Virus record (IMG/VR): IMGVR_UViG_3300034694_000399
Span: 1 to 44,369 of that record
Direction: 5' to 3' (one strand)
DNA length: 44,369 nucleotides
Source of the DNA: a virus
Below, piece by piece: positions 31,781 to 44,282 of this stretch; positions within the stretch are counted from its first letter, which is position 1; each line of letters starts with the position of its first letter. A program made the translations under genes and the position numbers. A model generated the notes under the pieces. That model worked only from the letters and a program-made list of their open reading frames with translations. It was not told where the DNA came from and ran no database searches.

Positions 31781-32255
31781 AGGTAGTATTTTCTTTTAAA
31801 AAACAAACATGTATTAATCTTGATTCATTATCTTCATCACCAAAGTTTTCAAAAATATTTCTTGAATGTTCTAAATGAGAAGGAAAAACAATTAACCTAT
31901 TTAGTTTTGATTTTAATATACAACTTTTTTCTCCTTTATAATATAAAGTAGTTCCATCTTCTTTTGGTGGATTATAATTTAAATAAAGAATTGCAGTCAA
32001 ATCACCCATCATTTCATCTGTATGAATAAAATTAGGTTCTATTTGATGTTCTGGAGATTTTCTTACAAAATTTAAAGATGAATAAAAATTAGGGTATTTT
32101 TCCAAAAGAAACCGAACCAACTCATCTTCACCCCTTTGTCTAACATTTTTAAATAAATCTTCACCAATTTGAATATCTTCAAAACCTTTGTTAATTACAT
32201 CACAAACATAACTATCAATATCTTTTATTACATTTTCATATAAGCTTACATTCAT
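31767..32255 (-). CDS. 2OG-Fe(II) oxygenase family protein
   Basis: A 162-residue double-stranded beta-helix protein. The iron-binding HxD is H78-T-D80. The distal histidine is in FPSHLEHSR (H127 or H130). The 2-oxoglutarate-binding Arg is probably R146 in ESRLIHVCFL. The layout matches prolyl-hydroxylase-like phage oxygenases (DUF6445 type). Such enzymes hydroxylate proteins or modify nucleotides. Here the gene is embedded between packaging genes rather than metabolic genes and is coupled (ATGA) to the upstream gene, so a virion-protein or host-protein substrate is possible. Catalytic residues look intact. Confidence 0.7.
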   Translation of the reverse strand: MNVSLYENVIKDIDSYVCDVINKGFEDIQIGEDLFKNVRQRGEDELVRFLLEKYPNFYSSLNFVRKSPEHQIEPNFIHTDEMMGDLTAILYLNYNPPKEDGTTLYYKGEKSCILKSKLNRLIVFPSHLEHSRNIFENFGDEDNESRLIHVCFLKENTTYEQY

Positions 32256-32815
32256 AAAGTCATTGTTATGTTTTTATCAAACATTCGATAAAGTTTTTCA
32301 CCATCTATAGTATACTCATATTCACTGTCTGGTTGGAAATAAACAACAGTTCCTTTAATAATACCTTTACTAATTAAGTATTCATTAGGATACTTAACTA
32401 AACCCATTAATGGCTCTTCTTCTTGGTGGGTCTTAAGATAATGATTTTTTTTAGGAATAGGCTTTATCATGCAATATTTAGAATGACAAAACCATTCATC
32501 ATTCTGTTTATACATATAAAACTGATCGTAATCAATAAAAAACAAGTCATCTTGAAAGAAACTTTTACCGCTTCTTTCTTTTCCTTTCATGTCATTATAA
32601 TATTTAAAAACATTATGATGAACCAGCAAGGTATCCCCTGGTTTAATATTACCCTTGTAATCTATAGGGGTTTGTTGTACAATTGCGTACCTATTGGAAA
32701 CGGTATGATCTTCTTTGGAGTTGCTTACTATAAAATCAACATCTCCAATTTTTTTTGTATTATCATACCTTTTTCCATTGCAAGGTTTTACAATGAAGTA
32801 AAAAGGTGATTTCAT
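32252..32815 (-). CDS. possible double GroES-fold protein in the packaging cluster
   Basis: The 187-residue protein has two segments that look like GroES-type beta barrels. The first (about 25-115) contains NRYAIVQQTP, then IKPGDTLLVHHNVFKYY. The second (about 112-187) contains YCMIKPIPKK, then GIIKGTVVYFQPDSEYEYTIDGEKLYRM. PGDTLLV and the final VVYFxPDSxYEYxIDGEKLYRM are close in style to the co-chaperonin strand order. No clean mobile loop with the I-V-L tripeptide is seen, so it may not cap a chaperonin. It is linked by ATGA overlaps to genes on both sides. The fold proposal needs a profile search; a plain conserved hypothetical is the alternative. Confidence 0.45.
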   Translation of the reverse strand: MKSPFYFIVKPCNGKRYDNTKKIGDVDFIVSNSKEDHTVSNRYAIVQQTPIDYKGNIKPGDTLLVHHNVFKYYNDMKGKERSGKSFFQDDLFFIDYDQFYMYKQNDEWFCHSKYCMIKPIPKKNHYLKTHQEEEPLMGLVKYPNEYLISKGIIKGTVVYFQPDSEYEYTIDGEKLYRMFDKNITMTL

Positions 32816-33065: not shown

Positions 33066-36000
33066 TTATACGTCTTTAAGAAATCTAATGTATGCAGCCC
33101 TTGAGTTTGCATTTATATTGTCGCTGGATTGTATTAGAAAATTATTTGATGGGCTAACAGAAAAAGATTTTAGCATATTCCCTTGGTCTCCAATTGGTGA
33201 TATTGAGCTTGTCCATAAAAATTCGTCCTGTGTGTCACCAAAGAAGAAAACAGTAGGAGAAGATAAACTTGCATACCCATATCCATTAAGGTTGAAATCA
33301 GCATCTCCTAATTCGCTTGTATCGGTTAATCCAACCCAAGTCCCTGGATTAGCACCGTATCTATTTTGATTAGGGGTACTAGGATTACATGGGGAGTTTG
33401 CTATTAAATTCCATTCTGGCTGAGTAGGAAGTCTAAATCCTGTTGGCGCCTGTATTACTCTTGCTGCAAATTGATTATATAAAAGACCTCTTGAGCTGTT
33501 ATTAGGGTCAAAGTTGTAGTATGCAGCTACTGGAAGTCCAGCGTTATGCTGAGCATAGAATTCAGTATTATCTGTAGCAATAGGAATATCTGCCCCTGAT
33601 GTTAATACTTCAGTTGAATTTTCATCTGTCCATATAAAATCACAAACTGTAGTTTCACCTGGACCAGGGGGATCTGCAACTATTTCTCCAGTTAAAGTAT
33701 TTGTTGTTGTTCCTGCTCCTACAGGGTAAAATCCAAAAGAAACAACATCATTGCCTCCTGAAGTAAATGTGTATCCTGGGTTAGCTGAGACTTGAGTAGT
33801 CAATGTCCATGAAGTCCCTGTTGGACCTGTTGTAGTTGCACCATCTAAGTCTCCTGAAAGAGTGTATCCTGCAGCTGGGCCAACAATATTATTAACTACA
33901 GTTAATGTAATTTGACCAATCTGCTGGTCTTGCTGAATTTCTCCAGTCAATACTCCGTTAGCTATACCTCCTCCAGCAGGTATTGTTCCGCTTGGGTTAG
34001 TAGATGTGAATGGGCCAGTTAAGCTGTATCCTGGATTTAATGAAAGTCCAGTATCGAAGTTATAAGGCGAAACGCCTCCCATTCCTGTATCAGTTGCACC
34101 ATCTAAGTCTCCTATAAGAGTGTATCCTGCAGCTGGGCCAATAATATTATTTTCAATATTGTATGTCATTGTGCTATTAGCACCTGCTATTGATTCTTCA
34201 AAATATAAACAAATCGCAAGCTCACCATCATTTGGTCCTACAGTACCTGTCTCTACTCCCACTACAGCAGTGTTTGCAAACTGGTTAATTGTAATTCCGA
34301 ATGATGAAACATCTGCTTGACCTGCAACGTATGTGTTATTATCAGATTGGTCTAGTGTAAATATATCTCCAGAAAGATTTAGTGGATTGTAATTACCTAT
34401 AGTAGATGACAATCCATCTGCTATTGTTCCAATAGTAAAACCTATTTGCGCTCCATTAGGAACACTTAAAGGAGAACTTCCCATCCATACCCAAGTAACA
34501 AGTTTTAGCTTAAGTGGCAATGGTGTTCTCCATAAAGGAATTTGAGAAGCTGGAGAAACATTAGATGTCCACTCCATAAAGTCATACCCTTGAGTCTGAC
34601 TTCCTAGGTTATTTATTAAACCAGTCATTATAAATGTTGGAGTAACTGTGTCAGGAGTTTCAATAACCCTTCCGTTAGCATCAACAGATAAATTATAAGC
34701 TGCAGTACCTGCTACCTGACCAGCTCCATATGTGTTTAGCTTAAGCTCTCCGTCTTTTCTAAGTTCTAAAGCGTTAGATTCAAAGCCAGGGTTTGTTCCG
34801 TTTCCTATTATAAATAAGTTGTCTGTTGTATTCCATGAGTCTACACTTCCTGGACCTACAATTGAATTGAAAGAACCTAGAACTGTTTGTCTAAAGTCTG
34901 TAACTTGTAACCCAGAACCAAATGCGTAAGCAAAGCTTCCTGTTAATGAGTTATCTAATCCAATACCTGTTGACCTTTGAGAAGATAAAAACGCTGTATT
35001 TGAAATTCCAATTAACGTTGACTCAGGTGATTCTGTAAGGTTTCCTGTACCAAGTATATAACTTAAAGATCCTGAAGATTCGTTCACTGACCCAATAGAT
35101 ACTGATAGTATCCCTGAAGCTGTATTTGGTTGCCCCCCTATAGATATAGAGTTTTCAGCAGATGCTTCTTGACTACTACCAATTGTTACTGAGCCATTTC
35201 CTGATGATATATTTCCTTTACCAAATGAGGATGAATCAACTCCACTTGCTGTAGATTGATTACCAATCGCTGTAGATTGATTACCACTAGCTGTTGTTTG
35301 ACTTCCCATTGCTGTAGAAGATTGCCCACTTGCTTCTGTTGAAAGTCCTGATGCAAAAGATGCACTACCACTTGCTATTGTTGTGTTATTTAATGCCGTA
35401 GAGTAATTACCACTAGCTGTTGTGTTAGCTCCCATTGCTACAGAACCATTTCCTGAAGCTTCAGTGCTTAAGCCCATTGCTGTAGAAGAAGTTCCACTTG
35501 CTTCTGAGGATTGTCCCATTGCAGTACTTCCCAGTGCTGAGGCTTCAGTAGCGTTACCGAATGCTGTGGACAGAACTCCACTTGCTGTTGCGCTTTGTCC
35601 CATTGCTACAGAACCACTTCCTGAAGCTGTAGAGTTATTTCCACTAACTGTAGAATAAAGTCCACTTGCTTCTGTATTTAAACCTAATGCTGTAGAATTA
35701 TCTCCACTTGCTAATGTTTGATTACCTGATGCAAAAGATTGATCCCCACTTGCTTCGGTGTCTCTTCCTATTGCAGTAGAGTTAACTCCACTTGCTAATG
35801 TTTGATTACCAATTGCTGTAGAAAATTGCCCAGTTGCTTCTGTGAGATATCCCATTGCTGTAGATTGATTACCACTAGCTGTTGTTTGACTTCCTATTGC
35901 AGTAGAGTTAAGTCCACTTGCTTCGGTAGATTCTCCCATTGCTGTAGAAAAATCTCCAGTTGCTTCTGTGAGATATCCCATTGCTGTAGAATAATCTCCA

Positions 36001-37301
36001 CTTGCTGTTGTGGATTCTCCCATTGCTGTAGAATAATCTCCACTTGCTGTTGTGGCATCTCCCATTGCTGTAGAAGCATTTCCACTTGCTGTTGTGTTTT
36101 GTCCCATTGCTGTAGAAGAAGTTCCACTTGCTTCTGTGTAACCCCCCATTGCTGTAGAAAAATCTCCAGTTGCGTCTGTTTCAAATCCAAGAGCTGTAGA
36201 ATAAGTTCCACTTGCTACGGTGGTTCTTCCCATTGCTGTAGAAGTATCTCCACTTGCTGTTGTGAGTTCCCCCATTGAGGTAGAGTGGTCACCACTTGCT
36301 GTTGTTTCAGTCCCCATTGCTGTAGAGCCTATTCCAATAGCTTGTGTTCCGTTACCAATAGCTGTGGAATATTGTCCACTTGCGGATGTACCTGTACCCA
36401 TTGCATTAGCTGCTTCTCCATCCGCAAGGTTACTAGTTAGTTCATTGTATATTAAAGAATTTGTTCCTACACCTGCTTTTACAGGAGCGTCTCCTAGCTC
36501 ACTATCTGTTACCCATATAGCTAAGTTCCCTGGAGTCCCCTGACCTGTTAGTACAGAAGAGTTATCAATCTTATCCCAAAATATGTTATCGTTTAAGTCT
36601 TCAGAAATAATAGCCCAATCTCCAACTTCCCAATCAGTAATTGTTCCACCACCCTGTGTGTTTAAAGGAGTTGTTCCTTCAACAGAAACTATCCAATACT
36701 TTCCAGTGTTGTCAGGTATTAAAGATATAGCCTGTAAATCAGGTGTATTTGTGTCAGCATTCCATGCTCCTTGAAATTCTAGTCCAGAACCTTGGTAGTT
36801 CTGCCATTCGACAGTACCATCGGTTTGAGAAACTAAAACTTGCTCTCCTGTACCAACAGTGTTACTAGCGTCATAAACTTCAGAAGCAAAATAAATTCCT
36901 CCGTTTACATTTACTAATCCACTTGCAATTGTTTGTTTTCCAATAGTTACATTTTCAGCAACAATTAAGCTACCTATTCCGCTTCCGTCATCTAAATAAA
37001 CTATTGAGCCTACAGGAGTTTCACATGGATCTTTTGAATCTGTAGTAGCTGTATCTTGATAAAATAAAGAATTAACTAACTTAAAAGATTCCTCTCCTGA
37101 TGTTGGAGCTGTAAATATAGGAAGCCTATAAGAACAACCATCAAAGGCCTCGTCAATAACAAATTCAGCAATACCTTGTAGGGTAAAAGTTTTTGTCTGC
37201 CTATCAATTGGTGTTGAGTTAGCAGCAGTTCCTATTAAATAATCCGCACCTTCAATTGGTGATTGATTGGGGTACGATAAAGTATTGCTAATTTTTGCCA
37301 T
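33066..37301 (-). CDS. trimeric tail fibre with YadA-like head repeats and FISUMP-like tip
   Basis: A 1411-residue fibre. Residues 1-290 form the proximal part, including a GNxYIVSVxG-like module (WIVSVEGTTPLNTQGG, WEVGDWAII). From about 300 to 693 there are 28 regular 14-residue repeats of the type GxxTxASGxxSTAM, then about eight degenerate ones. This is the left-handed beta-roll repeat of YadA heads and implies a trimer. Residues about 893-1035 are a beta domain shared with the 245-residue protein at 40448. Two tandem 86-residue domains follow (about 1040-1215). The last 190 residues contain RLPTQPEWNLI and GTWVGLTD, as in Fibrobacter major-paralogous (FISUMP) domains. It is most likely the receptor-binding fibre. 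Confidence 0.8.
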   Translation of the reverse strand: MAKISNTLSYPNQSPIEGADYLIGTAANSTPIDRQTKTFTLQGIAEFVIDEAFDGCSYRLPIFTAPTSGEESFKLVNSLFYQDTATTDSKDPCETPVGSIVYLDDGSGIGSLIVAENVTIGKQTIASGLVNVNGGIYFASEVYDASNTVGTGEQVLVSQTDGTVEWQNYQGSGLEFQGAWNADTNTPDLQAISLIPDNTGKYWIVSVEGTTPLNTQGGGTITDWEVGDWAIISEDLNDNIFWDKIDNSSVLTGQGTPGNLAIWVTDSELGDAPVKAGVGTNSLIYNELTSNLADGEAANAMGTGTSASGQYSTAIGNGTQAIGIGSTAMGTETTASGDHSTSMGELTTASGDTSTAMGRTTVASGTYSTALGFETDATGDFSTAMGGYTEASGTSSTAMGQNTTASGNASTAMGDATTASGDYSTAMGESTTASGDYSTAMGYLTEATGDFSTAMGESTEASGLNSTAIGSQTTASGNQSTAMGYLTEATGQFSTAIGNQTLASGVNSTAIGRDTEASGDQSFASGNQTLASGDNSTALGLNTEASGLYSTVSGNNSTASGSGSVAMGQSATASGVLSTAFGNATEASALGSTAMGQSSEASGTSSTAMGLSTEASGNGSVAMGANTTASGNYSTALNNTTIASGSASFASGLSTEASGQSSTAMGSQTTASGNQSTAIGNQSTASGVDSSSFGKGNISSGNGSVTIGSSQEASAENSISIGGQPNTASGILSVSIGSVNESSGSLSYILGTGNLTESPESTLIGISNTAFLSSQRSTGIGLDNSLTGSFAYAFGSGLQVTDFRQTVLGSFNSIVGPGSVDSWNTTDNLFIIGNGTNPGFESNALELRKDGELKLNTYGAGQVAGTAAYNLSVDANGRVIETPDTVTPTFIMTGLINNLGSQTQGYDFMEWTSNVSPASQIPLWRTPLPLKLKLVTWVWMGSSPLSVPNGAQIGFTIGTIADGLSSTIGNYNPLNLSGDIFTLDQSDNNTYVAGQADVSSFGITINQFANTAVVGVETGTVGPNDGELAICLYFEESIAGANSTMTYNIENNIIGPAAGYTLIGDLDGATDTGMGGVSPYNFDTGLSLNPGYSLTGPFTSTNPSGTIPAGGGIANGVLTGEIQQDQQIGQITLTVVNNIVGPAAGYTLSGDLDGATTTGPTGTSWTLTTQVSANPGYTFTSGGNDVVSFGFYPVGAGTTTNTLTGEIVADPPGPGETTVCDFIWTDENSTEVLTSGADIPIATDNTEFYAQHNAGLPVAAYYNFDPNNSSRGLLYNQFAARVIQAPTGFRLPTQPEWNLIANSPCNPSTPNQNRYGANPGTWVGLTDTSELGDADFNLNGYGYASLSSPTVFFFGDTQDEFLWTSSISPIGDQGNMLKSFSVSPSNNFLIQSSDNINANSRAAYIRFLKDV
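33840..34150 (-). repeat. 258-bp direct duplication encoding two 86-residue fibre domains
   Basis: The string CCATCTAAGTCTCCT followed by AGAGTGTATCCTGCAGCTGG occurs at 33841 and again at 34099, with only two or three differences over about 50 bases. Spacing is exactly 258 nt (86 codons). The encoded segments share GPAAGYTL, GDLDGAT and a closing TGEI strand. Confidence 0.75.
35222..36397 (-). repeat. 28 tandem 42-bp repeats encoding YadA-like 14-mers
   Basis: Inside the fibre gene, 28 consecutive units of exactly 14 codons run without insertion. The consensus protein unit is G-x-x-T-x-A-S-G-x-x-S-T-A-M. DNA units are diverged in the variable codons but share strings such as CCACTTGCT...GTAGA on the plus strand. 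In-frame unit gain or loss would change fibre length. Confidence 0.85.
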
Positions 37302-38590: not shown

Positions 38591-38848
38591 CTACCATAAT
38601 GCTACAATTTCTCCTGCGGTAGTTCCTGATGCAAATACCTGCAAGACATTTACTGGAAAAAATTGTCCTGCATAAACACCTGTAAAGATAACATCGTCAC
38701 CTCCTACAGTTTTTACTCTAACATTTCCAGGTGTGCCTATATATAAAGCACATCCATTATTTGTTCCTCCTGATACACTGGGAATTAAATCAGTGTCACT
38801 TGGAGTAACCAGCGCAGCTCTACCTGCTTGTAATTTTTGATAAGCCAT
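38591..38848 (-). CDS. small beta-rich virion-type protein (85 aa)
   Basis: An 85-residue all-beta protein with a pattern common in marine phages: GxxALYIGTPGNVRVKTVGGDDVIFTGV, then AGQFFPVNVLQVFASGTTAGEIVALW. It resembles small decoration or tail-tip proteins in composition. It lies between the lysis cassette and the cluster of small basic proteins. It is likely structural, with the exact site unknown. A 64-nt gap separates it from the membrane-protein gene. Confidence 0.6.
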   Translation of the reverse strand: MAYQKLQAGRAALVTPSDTDLIPSVSGGTNNGCALYIGTPGNVRVKTVGGDDVIFTGVYAGQFFPVNVLQVFASGTTAGEIVALW

Positions 38849-38851
38849 TTT

Positions 38852-39007
38852 TTATTTGTTATAAGGGAAATTTCTGTTTAAACTGTCTTTTCTTTTAGAA
38901 CAGCCACAAGGTTTTCCTGTTACTTTTTCATATACTTTAGCTACTTTGTCTGCTCCAACTGCTTTAGCTACTTTTTCTACAGTGTCTCCGAATCCTTTTG
39001 ATTTCAT
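38852..39007 (-). CDS. small Cys/Lys protein with CGC-KRK-LN-FPY end (51 aa)
   Basis: The protein reads as a helix (FGDTVEKVAKAVGADKVAKVYEKVTG) followed by the motif CGCSKRKDSLNRNFPY. This CxC-KRK-LN-xFPY tail is recurrent in phage small proteins, where I know no function. The cysteine pair might bind metal. The start overlaps the upstream stop (ATGA), and it is 3 nt from the beta-rich gene downstream. The ATGA coupling and the recognisable motif make it a solid gene call. Confidence 0.65.
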   Translation of the reverse strand: MKSKGFGDTVEKVAKAVGADKVAKVYEKVTGKPCGCSKRKDSLNRNFPYNK

Positions 39008-39162
39008 TTTACGTCTTCTTTTTCTTTACAAGCACATAACTTGTTTGGACATTTATTAATATTTTTATAAGACAAAGACAGAATAAATGAATTCCATTTA
39101 CATTGAAATTCACACCATACTCTTTGCATCCAAAGACCTAATTTTACAAAAGCTTTTCCCAT
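39004..39162 (-). CDS. small Cys/Trp-rich protein (52 aa)
   Basis: A 52-residue ORF with five cysteines (C17, C21, C38, C43, C45) and several aromatic residues: LGLWMQRVWCEFQCKWNSF, then NKCPNKLCACKEKED. The C-x3-C and C-x4-C-x-C arrangement could bind zinc, but no family is recognised. It starts at the base before the stop of the next upstream gene and overlaps the downstream gene by ATGA. It has no hydrophobic segment long enough to be called a clear TM helix. Confidence 0.55.
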   Translation of the reverse strand: MGKAFVKLGLWMQRVWCEFQCKWNSFILSLSYKNINKCPNKLCACKEKEDVK

Positions 39163-39381
39163 TTATTTTTTTATTAAACCTGTCAAGTGTTTTTTAACTC
39201 CTTTAACATGTCCTGGGTGATCATGTCTGTAAGACATTCCTTTGTCAGCTCCATAAGAATGCCCATAATCTTTTTTAGACATTGCTTTTGACTCGTCTCT
39301 ACGATCTTTTAAAGATTGTTTCTTTTTTCCATTTCTCGCTCCTATTGATTCATCTAAACGAGCATTATATCCTTGTGCCAT
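39163..39381 (-). CDS. small basic His-rich protein (72 aa)
   Basis: I place the start at 39381 (MAQGYNARLDESIGARNGKKKQ) because the longer frame to 39423 overlaps the upstream gene and its extra N-terminus looks non-coding. The protein is strongly basic, with many H, K, R and G (KKDYGHSYGADKGMSYRHDHPGHVKG). The opening YNxRLDESxGxRxGK pattern is seen in other phage small proteins. The function is unknown; nucleic-acid binding is plausible from charge. Confidence 0.6.
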   Translation of the reverse strand: MAQGYNARLDESIGARNGKKKQSLKDRRDESKAMSKKDYGHSYGADKGMSYRHDHPGHVKGVKKHLTGLIKK

Positions 39382-39391
39382 AATAATTGTT

Positions 39392-39592
39392 TTATTTTTT
39401 CTTGTTTTTAAGTATTTTATCAATAGCTACATTCTTTATGTTGATAGTATCATAAGAAGGTACATTTGTCAAATTTGGATGAGTATTACTTTTTTGATAC
39501 TTAGCCAAACCCTTATCAATTTTTTCTTGAAAATTTTTTTTACCGTTTAAACATTTTTTTAATGCATCTCCGATTAATCCTTTACAACTCAT
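39392..39592 (-). CDS. small basic hypothetical protein (66 aa)
   Basis: Starts MSCKGLIGDALKKCLNGKKNF, with two cysteines nine residues apart, then a lysine-rich tail ending KILKNKKK. The CxxxxGDxxKKCxxxxK opening resembles that of the ORF at 41363-41557 (CESIKDTKKRAKCEEANK). A TAnnTTTG element lies just upstream at 39611-39618. No family is recognised. Confidence 0.55.
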   Translation of the reverse strand: MSCKGLIGDALKKCLNGKKNFQEKIDKGLAKYQKSNTHPNLTNVPSYDTINIKNVAIDKILKNKKK

Positions 39593-39610
39593 AACTTAAA
39601 ATTTATTCTA

Positions 39611-39618
39611 CAAATATA
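39611..39618 (-). promoter_or_regulatory. TAnnTTTG element inside the small-protein cluster
   Basis: The minus strand reads TATATTTG in the 26-nt gap, 19 nt before the start at 39592. It resembles the groEL promoter -7 octamer exactly but has no -33 TTTG at 19 nt. Confidence 0.4.
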
Positions 39619-39909
39619 CTAATATTTTCCTTGTCTAGTTTTAGGACTAGACTTTGTTGAACCACCCTTCCCAGCCCATAGGTTTTTACACGCCCAGTAT
39701 CTTGCAGTTAACTTTGATTTTGCTGTTCCACATTTATGACGTGCCTTGAAGCTCTTTCGTGCAGCTGCCGAATAATTATGTCCATATCCTTTTGCTCCAA
39801 AGTGAATAAGCTTTTCTTTTCCACCTTCACAGCCTTTAACCATTTTCTTTTTACCTGCTCTATCAGAAGCAGTAGGCTTATTACAAGCCATCTTTTTCTT
39901 ATCTGCCAT
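39619..39909 (-). CDS. conserved basic protein with KKMVKGCEGGKEK-type domain (96 aa)
   Basis: The start at 39909 (MADKKKMACNKPTASDRAG) is preferred; the longer frame to 39975 would run through the ORF at 39914-40039. The core KKKMVKGCEGGKEKLIHFGA, then GHNYSAAARKSFKARHKC, then KSKLTARYWACKNLW is a small Cys/His-containing domain. I know it as recurrent in phages and also in giant eukaryotic viruses, without a defined function. Conserved C, H, R and W positions suggest a metal- or nucleic-acid-binding fold. It is basic throughout. Strong as a gene, unknown as to role. Confidence 0.7.
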   Translation of the reverse strand: MADKKKMACNKPTASDRAGKKKMVKGCEGGKEKLIHFGAKGYGHNYSAAARKSFKARHKCGTAKSKLTARYWACKNLWAGKGGSTKSSPKTRQGKY

Positions 39910-39913
39910 TTCA

Positions 39914-40039
39914 TTATTTCTTACCGCACTTTGAATATGCACTATTTTTAATAGTTTTTTCAGAAGGTAATCCATTTTTTTCAGGATTAACTCCGCTTTT
40001 CTTTGCTGCTGTAAAATAAGGTTTTAATGATTTTTTCAT
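39914..40039 (-). CDS. small basic protein (41 aa)
   Basis: A 41-residue ORF: MKKSLKPYFTAAKKSGVNPE, then a turn-rich part ending AYSKCGKK. It fits exactly between two stronger genes, and its start shares a base with the upstream stop (TAATG). Very basic with a single cysteine. No family recognised. Confidence 0.5.
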   Translation of the reverse strand: MKKSLKPYFTAAKKSGVNPEKNGLPSEKTIKNSAYSKCGKK

Positions 40040-40287
40040 TATTTAGTATATTTTTTAGTTACTTTTGCTTTTTTTGTATTTGACACAAATTGCTTTTTGC
40101 CGCCTGACGCTTTCTTTTTTCTTGCTGTCTTAGCCCTTTCTGATTTACTTAAACTCTTAGCCTTAGCCAAAGGAAGACACCTGTCTGGATTTTTCTTATT
40201 CTTGCTAGTACCGCATTCGCCTTTTATAGATCCATCTGTGCCTATGCGAACCCACTTCTCATTTCTCCATTTAGCAAGCTCTCCCAT
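40039..40287 (-). CDS. conserved basic protein with WRxExWVRIGTDG / RCLP domain (82 aa)
   Basis: Residues 1-40 read MGELAKWRNEKWVRIGTDGS, then CGTSKNKKNPDRCLPLAKAKSLSKSERAKTARKKK. This two-part motif (WVRIxxDGxIxGxCG and KxPDRCLPxAKAxSLxxxxRAxxAxKKK) is a recurrent phage domain of unknown function, also met in large DNA viruses. It is extremely basic (pI well above 10 by inspection). It ends in a K-rich tail. Both ends are TAATG-coupled. A DNA- or RNA-associated or virion-core role is plausible but unproven. Confidence 0.7.
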   Translation of the reverse strand: MGELAKWRNEKWVRIGTDGSIKGECGTSKNKKNPDRCLPLAKAKSLSKSERAKTARKKKASGGKKQFVSNTKKAKVTKKYTK

Positions 40288-40445
40288 TACTTTTTCTTTT
40301 TTCCTTTACCGTAGTTAGGGTCTTTGCAATACTTACTAGCAGCCATGTTAGCATACGCAGAAGGATATTTGTCAAAGGTTCTTTTTGCCCAAGATATTCC
40401 TGCTGCACAAATTTTATTTCCTTTTTTCTTAACCTTCTTTGCCAT
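40287..40445 (-). CDS. conserved basic protein with WAKRTFDKYPSAYANMAASKYC motif (52 aa)
   Basis: A 52-residue protein consisting of one motif: KICAAGISWAKRTFDKYPSA and YANMAASKYCKDPNY, followed by GKGKKKKK. The KYPSAYAN core is widespread in phage and giant-virus small proteins; I know no function. Two cysteines flank the helix. Start and stop are TAATG-coupled with the neighbours. Together with the 82- and 96-residue genes it forms a run of three such domains encoded as separate neighbouring genes. Confidence 0.65.
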   Translation of the reverse strand: MAKKVKKKGNKICAAGISWAKRTFDKYPSAYANMAASKYCKDPNYGKGKKKK

Positions 40446-40447
40446 AA

Positions 40448-41185
40448 TTATAAGTTTATTTCAAAAACTAAACACAACTCCATTTCTGCATCATCTGTTC
40501 CTATCGCTCCGTTTTCTACCCCACTAATATTTATAATTTCTCCTGCTGAGAGACTTACATTTCCGTCCCATGTCTTAGTTGGGAAAGTGCCAGTATCAGA
40601 AGCCGCTAAAGATAAAGTAGGTAATGCCGCTTTAAATTGATAACTAGACGTCTGTGTTGTAGAAAGTGTAGTGTCTGTCATAGAATAAACATTTACATCC
40701 CATGTGCTATTTGCTAATGGAATATTAACAGGTGTTGCATGTATCCATTTCATTTGAGCCTTTATAAGCTTACCATCAAATGGCATTTGAAATACAGAAC
40801 TATTTGCCGCTACAGGCGAAGCTGATGCTGCAAACTCTAATGTATCTCCAAATATTCCAGGGTCCCCACCAAATAAATTCTTCCAAACTCCAACTACAGA
40901 CAATAACGCTCCTTGCGCTCTTGATATATTAACCTCACTACCAGTCCCTTGACTTATTAAAATACCTGCCTCCCCAATTAAAACAACATTGTCAGCTGTA
41001 GAATCACTTCCAGTTAAGGTAATAGTAAATTCATTGGTATCAGTTTCTGTTCCTGATAAATCATATTTAGTTCCAACTAAGTTGGGGTCTATCTGTATGT
41101 TGTCTAATCCATCGTATCCAACTAAAGCCTCTACTTGAGCTTGGTCTGTTCTTAATTGAAATTGTGAAAATTTTAAATTTGCCAT
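40448..41185 (-). CDS. structural protein sharing a domain with the tail fibre (245 aa)
   Basis: A beta-rich protein starting MANLKFSQFQLRTDQAQVEALVGYDG. Residues about 110-245 (FAASASPVAANSSVFQMPFDGKL..., IPLANSTWDVNVY, ending GAIGTDDAEMELCLVFEIN) resemble fibre residues about 893-1035 (SNVSPASQIPLWRTPLPLKL..., VPNGAQIGF, ending GTVGPNDGELAICLYFEES). This is thus probably a second, shorter fibre, spike or fibre-associated protein. It sits among the first genes of the late operon. Structural role inferred from composition and shared domain. Confidence 0.6.
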   Translation of the reverse strand: MANLKFSQFQLRTDQAQVEALVGYDGLDNIQIDPNLVGTKYDLSGTETDTNEFTITLTGSDSTADNVVLIGEAGILISQGTGSEVNISRAQGALLSVVGVWKNLFGGDPGIFGDTLEFAASASPVAANSSVFQMPFDGKLIKAQMKWIHATPVNIPLANSTWDVNVYSMTDTTLSTTQTSSYQFKAALPTLSLAASDTGTFPTKTWDGNVSLSAGEIINISGVENGAIGTDDAEMELCLVFEINL

Positions 41186-41204
41186 TGTTTTGTTTTTTTA
41201 TATA

Positions 41205-41363
41205 TTATTCGCAGAGTTCTGGTAGCATTCTACTATCTCCAATTACTGTTTCTTGTTCACAGAACTCATCAAGCTCCGTTATTATAAAGCATAGTTCTGG
41301 TATGTCTTCATTTCTTTTGTCTTGAAATGGTATTCCATTTCCTATAGCTGATCCTAATCCCAT
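41205..41363 (-). CDS. small acidic protein (52 aa)
   Basis: A 52-residue acidic ORF: MGLGSAIGNGIPFQDKRNED, then IPELCFIITELDEFCEQE and RMLPELCE. It contains two similar PELC motifs and a third cysteine. It is acidic, unlike the basic neighbours. Its start is TAATG-coupled with the upstream gene. No family recognised. Confidence 0.5.
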   Translation of the reverse strand: MGLGSAIGNGIPFQDKRNEDIPELCFIITELDEFCEQETVIGDSRMLPELCE

Positions 41364-41557
41364 TATTTTTGTTTCTTTAACGCTGGAGGCGTTGGGTTTA
41401 ATGATTCTCGTTTTGCTTTTTGATAAGAAAGCATTTCAAAATTTTTATTATTAAAATTACTTTCAGATCTTTCTTTAGCCACATGTGTTTTTAGTAGCTT
41501 ATTAGCTTCTTCACATTTAGCTCTTTTTTTTGTATCTTTTATTGATTCGCAACCCAT
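41363..41557 (-). CDS. small basic protein (64 aa)
   Basis: A Lys/Glu-rich helical protein starting MGCESIKDTKKRAKCEEANK, with cysteines at 3 and 15, and ending TPPALKKQK. The two-cysteine opening resembles the 66-residue protein at 39392. It lies 18 nt after the first late gene and is TAATG-coupled to the next. Unknown function. Confidence 0.55.
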   Translation of the reverse strand: MGCESIKDTKKRAKCEEANKLLKTHVAKERSESNFNNKNFEMLSYQKAKRESLNPTPPALKKQK

Positions 41558-41575
41558 AATTTTATTTTTTAGTTT

Positions 41576-41887
41576 TTATTTACCTCCAGTATTACCTTTG
41601 TTTCTTCTTCCTGCTCCCTTTTTACCTCTAGCTCTTCTGTCTCCTGCTGTATTACTCTTGCTTCCTCTATTTTTAGAGGCCTTTTCTAGTACAACTTTAC
41701 CGTTTTTATGGGACACATCTAGTCCATCGTAGTTCCCATATGTTCCAAATTGACGATTTTTTCTATTATCATCAACTCTTTGCTTAATAGACTTACGTGT
41801 TTTGTTGTATTTAGCCTGATATTTACGATGTTTCTTGCGTGCATCAGGGTTATCTCTATAAAATTTAGCAGTTCTGCTTAATGCCAT
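41576..41887 (-). CDS. first late-operon gene: basic protein with SRTAKFYRDNPDARKK / DxSHKNGK motif (103 aa)
   Basis: The start at 41887 (MALSRTAKFYRDNPDARKKH) is chosen because it lies just after the divergent promoter; the longer frame to 41917 would run through it. The protein is very basic. The N-terminal part (TAKFYRDNPDARKKHRKYQAKYNKT) and a later YGNYDGLDVSHKNGKVVLEKASKNRGSKS segment form a conserved phage pattern. The D-x-SH-x-NG part recalls an HNH-like finger, but the full HNH motif is not evident. The C-terminus is RG/K-rich. Being first in the late transcript suggests a regulatory or DNA-binding role, which is inference. Confidence 0.65.
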   Translation of the reverse strand: MALSRTAKFYRDNPDARKKHRKYQAKYNKTRKSIKQRVDDNRKNRQFGTYGNYDGLDVSHKNGKVVLEKASKNRGSKSNTAGDRRARGKKGAGRRNKGNTGGK

Positions 41888-41898
41888 AATAAAAAAGT

Positions 41899-41914
41899 TA
41901 TCTTTGCAAAGATA
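41899..41914. promoter_or_regulatory. palindromic divergent double -7 element (TATCTTTG on both strands)
   Basis: TATCTTTGCAAAGATA is a perfect 16-bp palindrome. Each half is a TAnnTTTG element, one for the plus-strand regulator (ATG at 41928) and one for the minus-strand late operon (ATG at 41887). Distances from element to start codon are 21 and 19 nt. The two -7 elements abut, so only one polymerase could occupy the site at a time. The minus side extends to TTTGTATCTTTG. Confidence 0.7.
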
Positions 41915-41927
41915 CAAATTTAATCTA

Positions 41928-42356
41928 ATGAAATTTTCGCCACAAAACGACTACCTGAAATACTGGAAAGTTGTAAGACAATGGGCTAGGTCCAAATATA
42001 ACCTTTCTACATCTGAAATAGAGATGATGCTATTCTTATATAGCGAAGGATACTTTACAAGAAAACAATTTGAAGAGTATAATGAAATAATGTCCTGGGA
42101 CAAAAGGAGATTTGAAAACTTGCTAAGAGAAAAATGGATAATCGTCTGGAGAAAACGAAAAGGCAGAGAGTCTACTCTATATGAACTTGGATTTAGTGGG
42201 AAGCGTTTATGCGCTTCGATTTACAAAAAGCTGGATAAAAAAGAAATGGTGTCAGAACACGAAAGAACTAACCCCATTTTTAATTTAGATGCTGATTATA
42301 GCAAAAAAGTATACAGAAAGATTATAAAAAAAATGAATAAAGAAATGAAACTATAG
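41928..42356 (+). CDS. winged-helix (MarR-like) transcription regulator
   Basis: The start at 41928 (MKFSPQNDYLKYWKVVRQW) follows the palindromic promoter; a start at 41904 would lie inside it. Residues about 20-95 look like a winged helix: YNLSTSEIEMMLFLYSEGYFTRKQFEEYNEI, then SWDKRRFENLLREKWIIVWRKRKGRESTLYELGFSGKRL. There the RFENLLREKWI helix would be the recognition helix and the R-K-R-K-G-R hairpin the wing. Its divergent position before the late operon suggests that it controls early/late switching, including its own promoter. It ends tail to tail with groES, sharing CTATAG. Proteins of this type are common in flavobacterial phages. Function inferred. Confidence 0.75.
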   Translation: MKFSPQNDYLKYWKVVRQWARSKYNLSTSEIEMMLFLYSEGYFTRKQFEEYNEIMSWDKRRFENLLREKWIIVWRKRKGRESTLYELGFSGKRLCASIYKKLDKKEMVSEHERTNPIFNLDADYSKKVYRKIIKKMNKEMKL

Positions 42357-42608
42357 TACTACAACTATATCTCTTTCAGATATTATAGTTACTACCTCAT
42401 CTTCTAACATCATCTTGTGACCTGCATTCTTATCGTAATAAATGAAGTCACCTTCATTTACAACCTCAACATCAGTCCCTGGAATCTTTATCAAACCTTT
42501 TTTGTATCTTAGCTGGTTGCTATCGTCTGACGTTAGTAATATTCCTGACTGTGTTTTTTGTTCTGATTGAACTTCTGTAATAACAATGTACTTACCTACT
42601 GCTTTCAT
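42351..42608 (-). CDS. groES: co-chaperonin GroES
   Basis: An 85-residue GroES barrel: MKAVGKYIVITEVQ, then the mobile-loop region EQKTQSGILLTSDDSNQLRYKKG with the hydrophobic GILL tripeptide that docks on GroEL, then VVNEGDFIYYDK and a closing VVTIISERDIVVVL strand. Slightly shorter than host GroES (about 95). It lies downstream of groEL in the same direction but beyond a terminator and a 16-bp palindrome, so the usual ES-before-EL order is reversed. Its stop overlaps that of the regulator gene by 6 nt in CTATAG. Confidence 0.85.
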   Translation of the reverse strand: MKAVGKYIVITEVQSEQKTQSGILLTSDDSNQLRYKKGLIKIPGTDVEVVNEGDFIYYDKNAGHKMMLEDEVVTIISERDIVVVL

Positions 42609-42649
42609 TTTTATTTAATTTTGATAACCATTCGTGTTTGTACACAGTA

Positions 42650-42665
42650 AATAGTTATAACTATT
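42650..42665. promoter_or_regulatory. 16-bp perfect palindrome upstream of groES
   Basis: AATAGTTATAACTATT is a perfect dyad lying 42 nt before the groES start and 13 nt from the groEL terminator. It is not the CIRCE element. It may be an operator for groES; no TAnnTTTG element is seen between it and the start. Confidence 0.45.
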
Positions 42666-42670
42666 AGTGA

Positions 42671-42705
42671 ATAAAAACGCCAGTAAACCTAATTACTGGC
42701 ATTTT
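42671..42705. terminator. intrinsic terminator between groEL and groES
   Basis: An 8-bp perfect stem, GCCAGTAA (42679-42686) with TTACTGGC (42693-42700) and a 6-nt loop, is flanked by AAAAA on one side and TTTTT on the other. It serves the groEL transcript on the minus strand. It separates the two chaperonin genes into distinct or read-through-linked units. Confidence 0.8.
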
Positions 42706-42710
42706 TAAGT

Positions 42711-44282
42711 TTAATTTCTTTTCATTGTTACAATCGCATTAGTACTTAATATCGTTGTAGCGACACTTACTGCGTTTCTTAGTGCATTCTTAGTGACTTT
42801 AGCAGGATCAATGATTCCCATTGCGTACATATCTCCATACTTTTTATTCTTAACATCATATCCATGATTATAAGGAACATCTGCACACTCGCAAATAATA
42901 TCTCTTACTTCTTTTACATTTTCACCTGCATTAATTAATATCTGCTCTAAAGGCGCAATTAAAGCTCCATATAAAATATCTGCAGCCCAGCCTTCTCCTA
43001 ATGATTCTGCACATCTTAACAAAGCCAAGCCTCCACCAGGAAGAATTCCTTCTTCAACTGCAGAACGCACAGCGCAAACTGCGTCTTCTACTCTATCAAA
43101 TTTTTCTTTTTGCTCAATATCAGAGTTTCCTCCTACATAAATGACTCCAACTCCACCTGACAACAAAGCAATACGATTACTTATAAAGTCTCTTTCGTTT
43201 TTGCTCTTATTATTTTCCCTTTGAGTCTTAAGTTCTTGTATTCTCTTTGATGTTTCTGAATTGTCCGAGCCTTCTTTTAGAATAACACTAGATGAATTTC
43301 CAATAATAATCTTGTTCGCATGGCCTAAGTCCTCCATTGTTAGACTTCCTAAGTTATCACCTAGTGATTCGCTGAAATATTTTGCTCCTGTAGAAAGAGC
43401 TATGTCTGAAAGTAATTCATTGGTCTTATATCCAAATGATGGTGGGATAATATTACATAACTTCAAATTATTCTGAACTACATTGGCAGCAAGAGTGTTT
43501 ACTACGTTTTGAGCGCAGTTACCTATAATCAATAGTTTCTTGTTGTTGTTTATAACAGGTTTTAATATTGATTCAATTTGAAGAATGTTTGTAATCTCCA
43601 TGTCGGTAATCAAAATTTCTACATCATCTAATATACATTCATCGTTTCTGTGGTTGTTTACAAATAACTTTGAAGTATAACCTCTATCAATCTTAATACC
43701 CTTAGTAATGTCGTAGTAAGTCTGCTCAGTCTTGCTGTTCTCAACAGTTAAAACTCCGTCTTTTCCTAAATCCTTATAAGCAGATGAAATCATCTTACCA
43801 ATATCTGGATCATTGTTAGCTGAAATAGTAGCAACATCCTTAAGAGTCTTTCCTGTAACTTTCTTTGAAGTCTTGTCAAGTGTCTCAATAACCTTTTCAG
43901 ATAATTTATTTATATCCCTAATTAATTGAGTCGTGTTTACGTTGTCCTCTCTTTTTAATAATTGCATTCCCTCTTTTACAAGAGATTCAGTTAAAACAAT
44001 AGCGGTAGTTGTTCCGTCTCCTGCTGAGGTTGCTGTTCTTTCAGCCGCCTCTTTCATCATACGCACAGCCAGGTTCTCGACAGGGTCTTCTAAGTCTATT
44101 GATTTTGCAACCGTTACTCCGTCTTTAGTAACCGTTATGCCATGTGTATGGTTAGGAGACTCAATAAGTACAGTCCTACCTAAAGGACCTAACGTACTTT
44201 TTACCGCTTTTGAAATTGTAGTTATTCCATTAAGCAATTTATCTCTTCCCTCTTGCTCAAATGATAGTTCTTTTGGATTCAT
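42711..44282 (-). CDS. groEL: chaperonin GroEL (phage-encoded)
   Basis: A 523-residue group I chaperonin. ATP-site motifs are intact: TLGPLGRTV (30-38), TKDGVTVA (D54), GDGTTT (D89) and VEDAV (D400, equivalent of E. coli D398), with the GILPGGGLALL hinge (412-422). The apical domain contains PPSFGYKTNELLSDIALSTGA, where host proteins usually have PxFGDRRKAxLxDIAxLTG, so it is diverged. The C-terminal GGM tail is absent; the protein stops at VTMKRN, shorter than typical bacterial GroEL (about 545). It should fold phage proteins, perhaps the MCP or giant tail proteins. A well-formed promoter lies just upstream. Confidence 0.95.
   Translation of the reverse strand: MNPKELSFEQEGRDKLLNGITTISKAVKSTLGPLGRTVLIESPNHTHGITVTKDGVTVAKSIDLEDPVENLAVRMMKEAAERTATSAGDGTTTAIVLTESLVKEGMQLLKREDNVNTTQLIRDINKLSEKVIETLDKTSKKVTGKTLKDVATISANNDPDIGKMISSAYKDLGKDGVLTVENSKTEQTYYDITKGIKIDRGYTSKLFVNNHRNDECILDDVEILITDMEITNILQIESILKPVINNNKKLLIIGNCAQNVVNTLAANVVQNNLKLCNIIPPSFGYKTNELLSDIALSTGAKYFSESLGDNLGSLTMEDLGHANKIIIGNSSSVILKEGSDNSETSKRIQELKTQRENNKSKNERDFISNRIALLSGGVGVIYVGGNSDIEQKEKFDRVEDAVCAVRSAVEEGILPGGGLALLRCAESLGEGWAADILYGALIAPLEQILINAGENVKEVRDIICECADVPYNHGYDVKNKKYGDMYAMGIIDPAKVTKNALRNAVSVATTILSTNAIVTMKRN

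Follow-up and report, generated by a model that had tools for sequence, protein, structure and literature searches.

The DNA examined here is a virus record of 44,369 bases (IMG/VR record IMGVR_UViG_3300034694_000399; the whole stretch is called the window below). It contains an array of 11 small open reading frames (ORFs) of 41-103 residues, which spans positions 38852-41887. All 11 lie on the minus strand, with a reading direction from 41887 to 38852. Three of these genes, named C, B and A in the order in which they are read, are related to two protein families, DUF5872 and DUF5754 (the latter also called Tlr6F), and are the main subject of this report.

On the minus strand, ATG-started ORFs of at least 40 residues cover 96% of the array region, compared with 18% on the plus strand. 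In 300 Markov-shuffled copies of the region the mean coverage is 9% and the maximum is 26%, and the array ORFs are therefore taken as genes. A preliminary description of the window had reported an array of small, mostly basic proteins, and both parts of that statement hold: 10 of the 11 have isoelectric points (pI) of 9.3-11.1, the sole acidic small ORF being one of 52 residues (41205-41363, pI 4.1). The sizes given there are also correct. However, that description missed an acidic 245-residue ORF (40448-41185, pI 4.1) within the array, and two starts are specified here, with A comprising 96 residues from the ATG at 39909 and an ORF of 72 or 73 residues starting at the ATG at 39381. The three genes of main interest are as follows.

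Gene C: 40287..40445, minus strand; 52 residues, KICAAG..YPSAYANMAASKYC, DUF5872 N-terminal half by sequence comparison, two conserved cysteines; phrog_27331
Gene B: 40039..40287, minus strand; 82 residues, W..EKWVRIG..CG..CLP, DUF5872 C-terminal half by sequence comparison, two conserved cysteines; phrog_23735
Gene A: 39619..39909, minus strand; 96 residues from ATG 39909, DUF5754/Tlr6F, four cysteines in two covarying pairs (9/27 and 60/74)

Genes C and B and the DUF5872 family

Gene C runs into gene B through a one-base TAATG overlap, and the two genes are almost always found together. Bait scans return the closest 80 relatives, whose contigs are often incomplete; when C is the bait, B is present on the same strand in 79 of the 80 contigs. 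Among 180 distinct C genes, 175 have B within 3 kb downstream, with 105 pairs abutting or overlapping and 81 showing the exact one-base TAATG overlap. C is also found in all six named phages that carry B (C75C1, HTVC023P, HTVC027P, HTVC203P, HTVC106P and 023Pt_psg01). Most C-B contigs have, within the stretch available, no homologue of the TerL, portal or GroEL protein of the window, which suggests that the pair moves from phage to phage. In a control scan, a P-SSP7 protein yielded ten loci, too few for use.

The assignment of B is direct. By comparison of hidden Markov models (HMMs), B matches a DUF5872-like profile with a probability of 96% (E = 2.3e-9; controls, 0.1-0.3%), and the window B protein itself matches this family (E = 1.6e-6, model positions 55-124). 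Neither B nor C of the window has a Pfam match, both being under the PF19197 (DUF5872) cut-off, and a direct HMM-HMM comparison of C with the DUF5872 N-terminal half, made without bridging members, is not significant. A later run of the same comparison scored high but was set aside, as its target set was contaminated with true C sequences.

The assignment of C comes through ORFs in which the two halves are fused. One such bridging ORF, in locus L299, reads AKPALYSRVKSEAKRKFKIFPSAYASAWIVKEYKKRGGTYKGKK..RWMKEKWTTQDGSACG..CRP and matches PF19197 over positions 1-111 of 116, with 89.7 bits (cut-off 27.5). The C profile finds the fused ORFs of L294, L299, L300 and L306 with E values of 1.6e-6 to 3.1e-5 (L299: 3.1e-5). 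Because the C profile and PF19197 both match the fused L299 ORF, C is assigned to the N-terminal half. In locus L398 a C gene is followed by one small gene and then by a stand-alone DUF5872 C-terminal half (53.2 bits). When placed on the PF19197 model by way of fused intermediates that exceed the cut-off, C occupies positions 1 to about 54 and B about 55-116. By these comparisons, C and B are the N- and C-terminal halves of DUF5872. The window form differs from the Pfam family in being encoded by two overlapping genes and in having a cysteine pair in each half.

DUF5872 is split at the same point in phages HTVC033P, HTVC035P, HTVC115P, Lederberg, CRP-9, CRP-345, MEP402 and HMO-2011, and near that point in S-EIV1. 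Where relatives of the window lack C-B, a fused form of about 111-118 residues is often present (in L191, 52.9 bits to DUF5872). Fused DUF5872-like ORFs also occur in four contigs (L485-L488) from Dehalococcoidia and Alphaproteobacteria/Pelagibacteraceae metagenome-assembled genomes; these contigs are probably prophages or contaminating phage sequences. A sequence search of the PDB gave no relatives of A, B or C.

Gene A and the DUF5754/Tlr6F family

Among these window proteins, the only Pfam match is a sub-threshold one of A to DUF5754 (PF19058), at 15.2 bits versus a gathering cut-off of 27.4. Of 32 aligned A relatives, 25 match this family, with a best E value of 2.2e-11. The AlphaFold2 model of A consists of a beta-hairpin and two helices (pLDDT 75). 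In a Foldseek search of predicted viral structures, it matches ICP1 ORF125, the portal fusion of CL131 (a 1393-residue entry), an XkdF fusion and a protein of the marseillevirus Tunisvirus, at a probability of 1.00. The membership of A in DUF5754 rests on the family alignment and the fold match, the window protein alone being sub-threshold. A shares alignment and predicted fold with phage and marseillevirus members, and differs from them by its two cysteine pairs and its place in a cluster with a split DUF5872.

DUF5754/Tlr6F is conserved in polinton-like viruses, virophages, giant viruses (nucleocytoplasmic large DNA viruses, NCLDVs) and phages, without a known function (PMC4642659, PMC12220804, PMC8547959). 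It was singled out in 2015 as a protein of nearly all polinton-like viruses, several virophages, many giant viruses and some phages, for which no function could be detected (PMC4642659). DUF5754 and DUF5872 are both listed for the giant virus CpV-BQ1 (PMC12085832), and in the literature searched only one paper names the two families together, in a gene list. The three protein motifs of the preliminary description, said there to recur in unrelated large DNA viruses, are present where that description placed them; their recurrence is borne out for A by this literature and the Tunisvirus match, and CpV-BQ1 lists the two families to which the three proteins correspond.

Association of A with DUF5872

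In 15 cases A is joined to DUF5872 in a single ORF; these are called A-D ORFs, where D is a DUF5872-like form that is mostly free of cysteines. In Synechococcus phage S-CRES2, four consecutive genes encode a lysozyme, a homologue of p103 (the first protein of the window array), DUF5872 and A, an order that matches p103, C-B and A of the window. A partner of the C-B type is present in 69 of the 82 A loci that have 5 kb or more of flanking sequence on either side. Of the 16 named phages that carry C-B or DUF5872, 6 have A, compared with 124 of 50,697 phage records; these occurrences are not independent. A is missing from 55 of the closest 80 C-seeded contigs, many of which are incomplete.

The different forms of the partner tend to exclude each other. 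The split C-B pair and the cysteine-free form D are never found in one locus, and C-B and the fused cysteine-containing form never occur together in the 77 A-seeded, window-like loci (Fisher p = 2e-10). More diverse sets include six loci with both a match to C or B and a match to the fused form; in those six, the fused-form profile also catches lone N-terminal halves. From these distributions, the split and fused forms of the partner appear to be interchangeable and to replace each other.

Cysteine pairs

The cysteines of A were counted in 138 non-redundant A domains. Both residues of the 9/27 pair are present in 71 domains, one alone in 1 and neither in 66, and the 60/74 pair is complete in 84 and never represented by a single cysteine. 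A substitute pair, in the columns of residues 55 and 84, is complete in 8 domains and never single, and is seen only where 60/74 is absent. The cysteines of A thus come and go strictly as pairs. Some lineages have lost one of the 9/27 and 60/74 pairs without the other, which speaks against a single four-cysteine metal site and for disulfides. We infer from this covariation that the pairs of A form disulfides, metal sites being less likely.

The two cysteines of B are conserved in 178 of 179 sequences and those of C in 174 of 179, and 136 of 146 D sequences have no cysteine. The state of A follows that of its partner: A has two to four cysteines in 64 of the 67 distinct domains found beside C-B, and none in 37 of the 51 found beside D.

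Genomic slot and fusions to head proteins

In relatives with homologous TerL, portal and major structural proteins, and a homologue of a 364-residue protein that is called scaffold by position only, gene order around the portal can be compared directly. Between the portal and the scaffold-position protein, these relatives have, in one and the same slot, an A-DUF5872 fusion (L285, L279, L307, L309, L329 and L331), separate A and DUF5872 genes (L290) or C-B (L019 and L022). In the window this slot is empty, and C, B and A instead belong to the opening part of the late operon.

A is also fused to proteins of the head. In Aphanizomenon phage CL131 it occupies residues 530-604 of the 1393-residue portal-MuF protein (gp12), in the order portal, A, InPase and MuF. 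In Aeromonas phages A is N-terminal to an XkdF-type prohead protease (Peptidase_S78_2) encoded between the portal and major capsid protein (MCP) genes, and in ICP1 (gp125) it is C-terminal to such a protease, between the portal and scaffold/MCP genes. Compared with these systems, the window A shares the domain and is free-standing, without the protease; unlike the polyvalent and portal-MuF fusions, the window proteins each consist of one tiny domain and have neither a catalytic domain nor an enzymatic match. In L287 A is joined to a region read by eye as lytic-transglycosylase-like, for which the profile match is phrog_3108 only. In unrelated contigs, neighbours of C-B include head assembly, scaffold, MCP, tail and endolysin genes, and elsewhere the genes adjoin endolysin or terminase genes; all of these contexts are late.

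A 124-residue protein of Vibrio phage GR7B (L226:3941-4315) labelled Peptidase_S78_2 was rejected as a further fusion: Pfam shows domain A only and no protease. Separately, the A-XkdF protease fusions are matched over most of their length by phrog_1530, whose label, DNA methyltransferase, therefore looks wrong.

Possible role in head assembly

The homology, pairing, fusions, synteny and cysteine covariation described above are direct observations. C, B and A, perhaps with p103, constitute a transferable module; the eleven ORFs are not one system. It is about an even call whether C, B and A form one late, basic module that acts in head assembly near the portal and is retained in the particle. 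According to this proposal, DUF5872 would be synthesized in two pieces, C and B, whose translation is coupled and which probably come together again as a single two-part protein, and this protein would work with A in a physical complex. The module would be loaded during prohead assembly at or near the portal, A perhaps being the part that docks to the portal or enters the prohead. The proteins would then be retained in the particle beside the DNA, with possible contact aided by their positive charge, and disulfides (less likely, metal sites) may stabilize them in the mature or released particle.

Several points weigh against this proposal. A is absent or below threshold in 10 of the 16 named phages with C-B or DUF5872, two of these being marginal (E ~0.01), so it is a frequent and not an obligate partner. 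In this phage, cobaviruses and pelagiphages the genes are beside lysis genes and not head genes. The locus counts are not phylogenetically independent and carry no correction for descent. The fold of A matches no solved structure, the PDB search giving nothing below E = 1; the model of a fused C-B protein is of low confidence (pLDDT 60) and was not used. No virion proteomics covering these proteins was found in the literature searched.

The preliminary description proposed a shared task for the array, such as DNA condensation, a virion core or early host takeover, and named co-occurrence of the three motifs as a check. The motifs do co-occur, as C followed by B, as A with a C-B-type partner and as fused single polypeptides. 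The idea of a shared task is thus partly supported, for C, B and A, perhaps with p103, and not for all eleven ORFs. A task in the virion core or head fits the fusions and synteny, and early host takeover is disfavoured by the late context of lysis, terminase and head genes; for DNA condensation the argument is charge alone. The array had also been considered a candidate for an undescribed system, but A and the C-B pair correspond to known families.

A broader proposal is speculative, and we regard it as somewhat unlikely: DUF5754/Tlr6F and DUF5872 might be one ancient two-part module for capsid assembly or genome organization, common to tailed phages, polinton-like viruses and giant viruses. 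It would exist in cysteine-free fused and cysteine-paired split forms that replace each other whole, the pairs being disulfide locks set at particle maturation or cell exit. More generally, Tlr6F gains a partner (DUF5872), a slot between the portal and the next head gene, and fusions to portal and prohead protease proteins. The role of two uncharacterised families common to phages and giant viruses becomes testable through their fusions to each other or to head-assembly proteins, and for Tlr6F the cultured phage ICP1 makes such tests feasible.

Alternatively, the basic proteins and p103, as an HNH-like or small-terminase-like protein, might be DNA-packaging accessories that bind the DNA end and help the terminase and portal, but do not remain in the particle. 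Homologues of p103 adjoin or overlap annotated small terminase genes in cyanophages, DUF5872 is just upstream of TerL in many relatives with p103 alongside, and in Methylophilales phage MEP402 the two DUF5872 halves directly precede TerL. However, fusions to a prohead protease and to a lytic-transglycosylase-like domain are unexpected for a packaging factor, and p103 is present in a minority of loci only and matches no HNH family, so this role is unlikely.

By analogy with what is proposed for polyvalent proteins, the head might carry these proteins as effectors that are injected together with the DNA and act on the host; this reading is decidedly unlikely. The position of A between portal and InPase in CL131 is an arrangement of the polyvalent type (PMC5512222). 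However, no enzymatic motif is present, the genes sit with late lysis and structural genes, the protease fusion favours assembly, and the families reach viruses with quite different modes of entry.

Perhaps only the C-B pairing is functional, and the late genes for A and the other small proteins hitch-hike and have unrelated tasks. The C-seeded contigs and named phages that lack A are in keeping with this view, which is nevertheless improbable given the 15 A-DUF5872 fusion ORFs, the frequency of A far above background and the correlated cysteine states of A and its partner. A role in lysis or envelope release, as small basic cysteine-paired proteins that would work in the periplasm when infection ends, is very improbable: endolysin, amidase, M15 peptidase or lysozyme genes are repeated neighbours (in the window, pelagiphages, cobaviruses, HMO-2011 and S-CRES2) and cysteine pairs suit an oxidising compartment, but no signal peptides are seen by eye in the sequences, the portal-scaffold slot and head-protein fusions point elsewhere, and the families are present in giant and polinton-like viruses.

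Other genes in and around the array

The remaining genes of the array are the following.

p103: 41576..41887, minus strand; 103 residues, very basic; phrog_6437
p64: 41363..41557, minus strand; 64 residues, basic, lineage-specific
p52a: 41205..41363, minus strand; 52 residues, acidic (pI 4.1), three cysteines; one-base overlap with p64
p245: 40448..41185, minus strand; 245 residues, acidic; inside the array, outside the module
p41: 39914..40039, minus strand; 41 residues, basic, lineage-specific; one-base overlap with B
p66: 39392..39592, minus strand; 66 residues, basic; found in one other locus only
p73: 39163..39381, minus strand; 72 residues from ATG 39381, basic, His-rich; kept among GroEL-type relatives
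p52b: 39004..39162, minus strand; 52 residues, five cysteines; kept among GroEL-type relatives
p51: 38852..39007, minus strand; 51 residues, basic; weak match to phrog_32048; kept among GroEL-type relatives

The TAATG and ATGA junctions of the preliminary description are found as three one-base overlaps (p64-p52a, C-B and B-p41) and one four-base overlap (p52b-p51). Homologues of p103 adjoin terminase genes in T7-like cyanophages, and one directly precedes DUF5872 in S-CRES2. The p103 protein has no Pfam match, none to any HNH family included; its designation as an HNH protein was dropped, as the short DVSH...NR motif was seen by eye only and has no support from HNH profiles. A family search with p245 gave no match. 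The p41, p64, p66 and p52a genes are rare even in relatives, and p51, p73, p52b and p85 are conserved mainly among GroEL-type relatives. The last of these, an 85-residue protein (38591-38848), is strongly conserved in relatives, matches phrog_12296 (tail fiber protein, E = 3e-12) and may be a small virion protein.

Upstream of the array, on the same strand, are phage-encoded GroES and GroEL genes (42351-44282). The order GroEL/GroES, divergent ORF and small-gene array is kept in dozens of relatives. Between the array and the divergent 142-residue ORF, which is conserved in relatives, is a perfect 16-base palindrome, TATCTTTGCAAAGATA (41899-41914). It carries on both strands the Bacteroidota-type TAnnTTTG -7 element, and may therefore serve as a shared divergent promoter or operator. 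A search of the array region against Rfam gave no match.

Downstream of the array are genes for an amidase (PF01510), a holin (phrog_3427), a tail-fibre-like protein of 1411 residues, TerL (phrog_6681) and the portal (phrog_6547), and beyond the portal are the 364-residue protein, which has no assigned function, and a virion structural protein (phrog_13704) that is probably the MCP. TerL is 67.6% identical to that of MW202828, and Flavobacterium Elemovirus and Cellulophaga podoviruses are more distant relatives. Both Elemovirus and MW202828 belong to the TerL lineage of the window and have in common with it GroEL/GroES, A and p85, together with p53 and p103 in Elemovirus and p51 in MW202828; no C, B or fused form is present in the stretches searched (L001, L005). 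A 187-residue protein near TerL (32252-32815) matches phrog_13932, labelled co-chaperonin GroES, and the window has a separate GroES gene at 42351-42608. The 1411-residue protein (33066-37301) has tens of STAMG/ASG repeats resembling the head of a trimeric autotransporter, and is probably a receptor-binding fibre.

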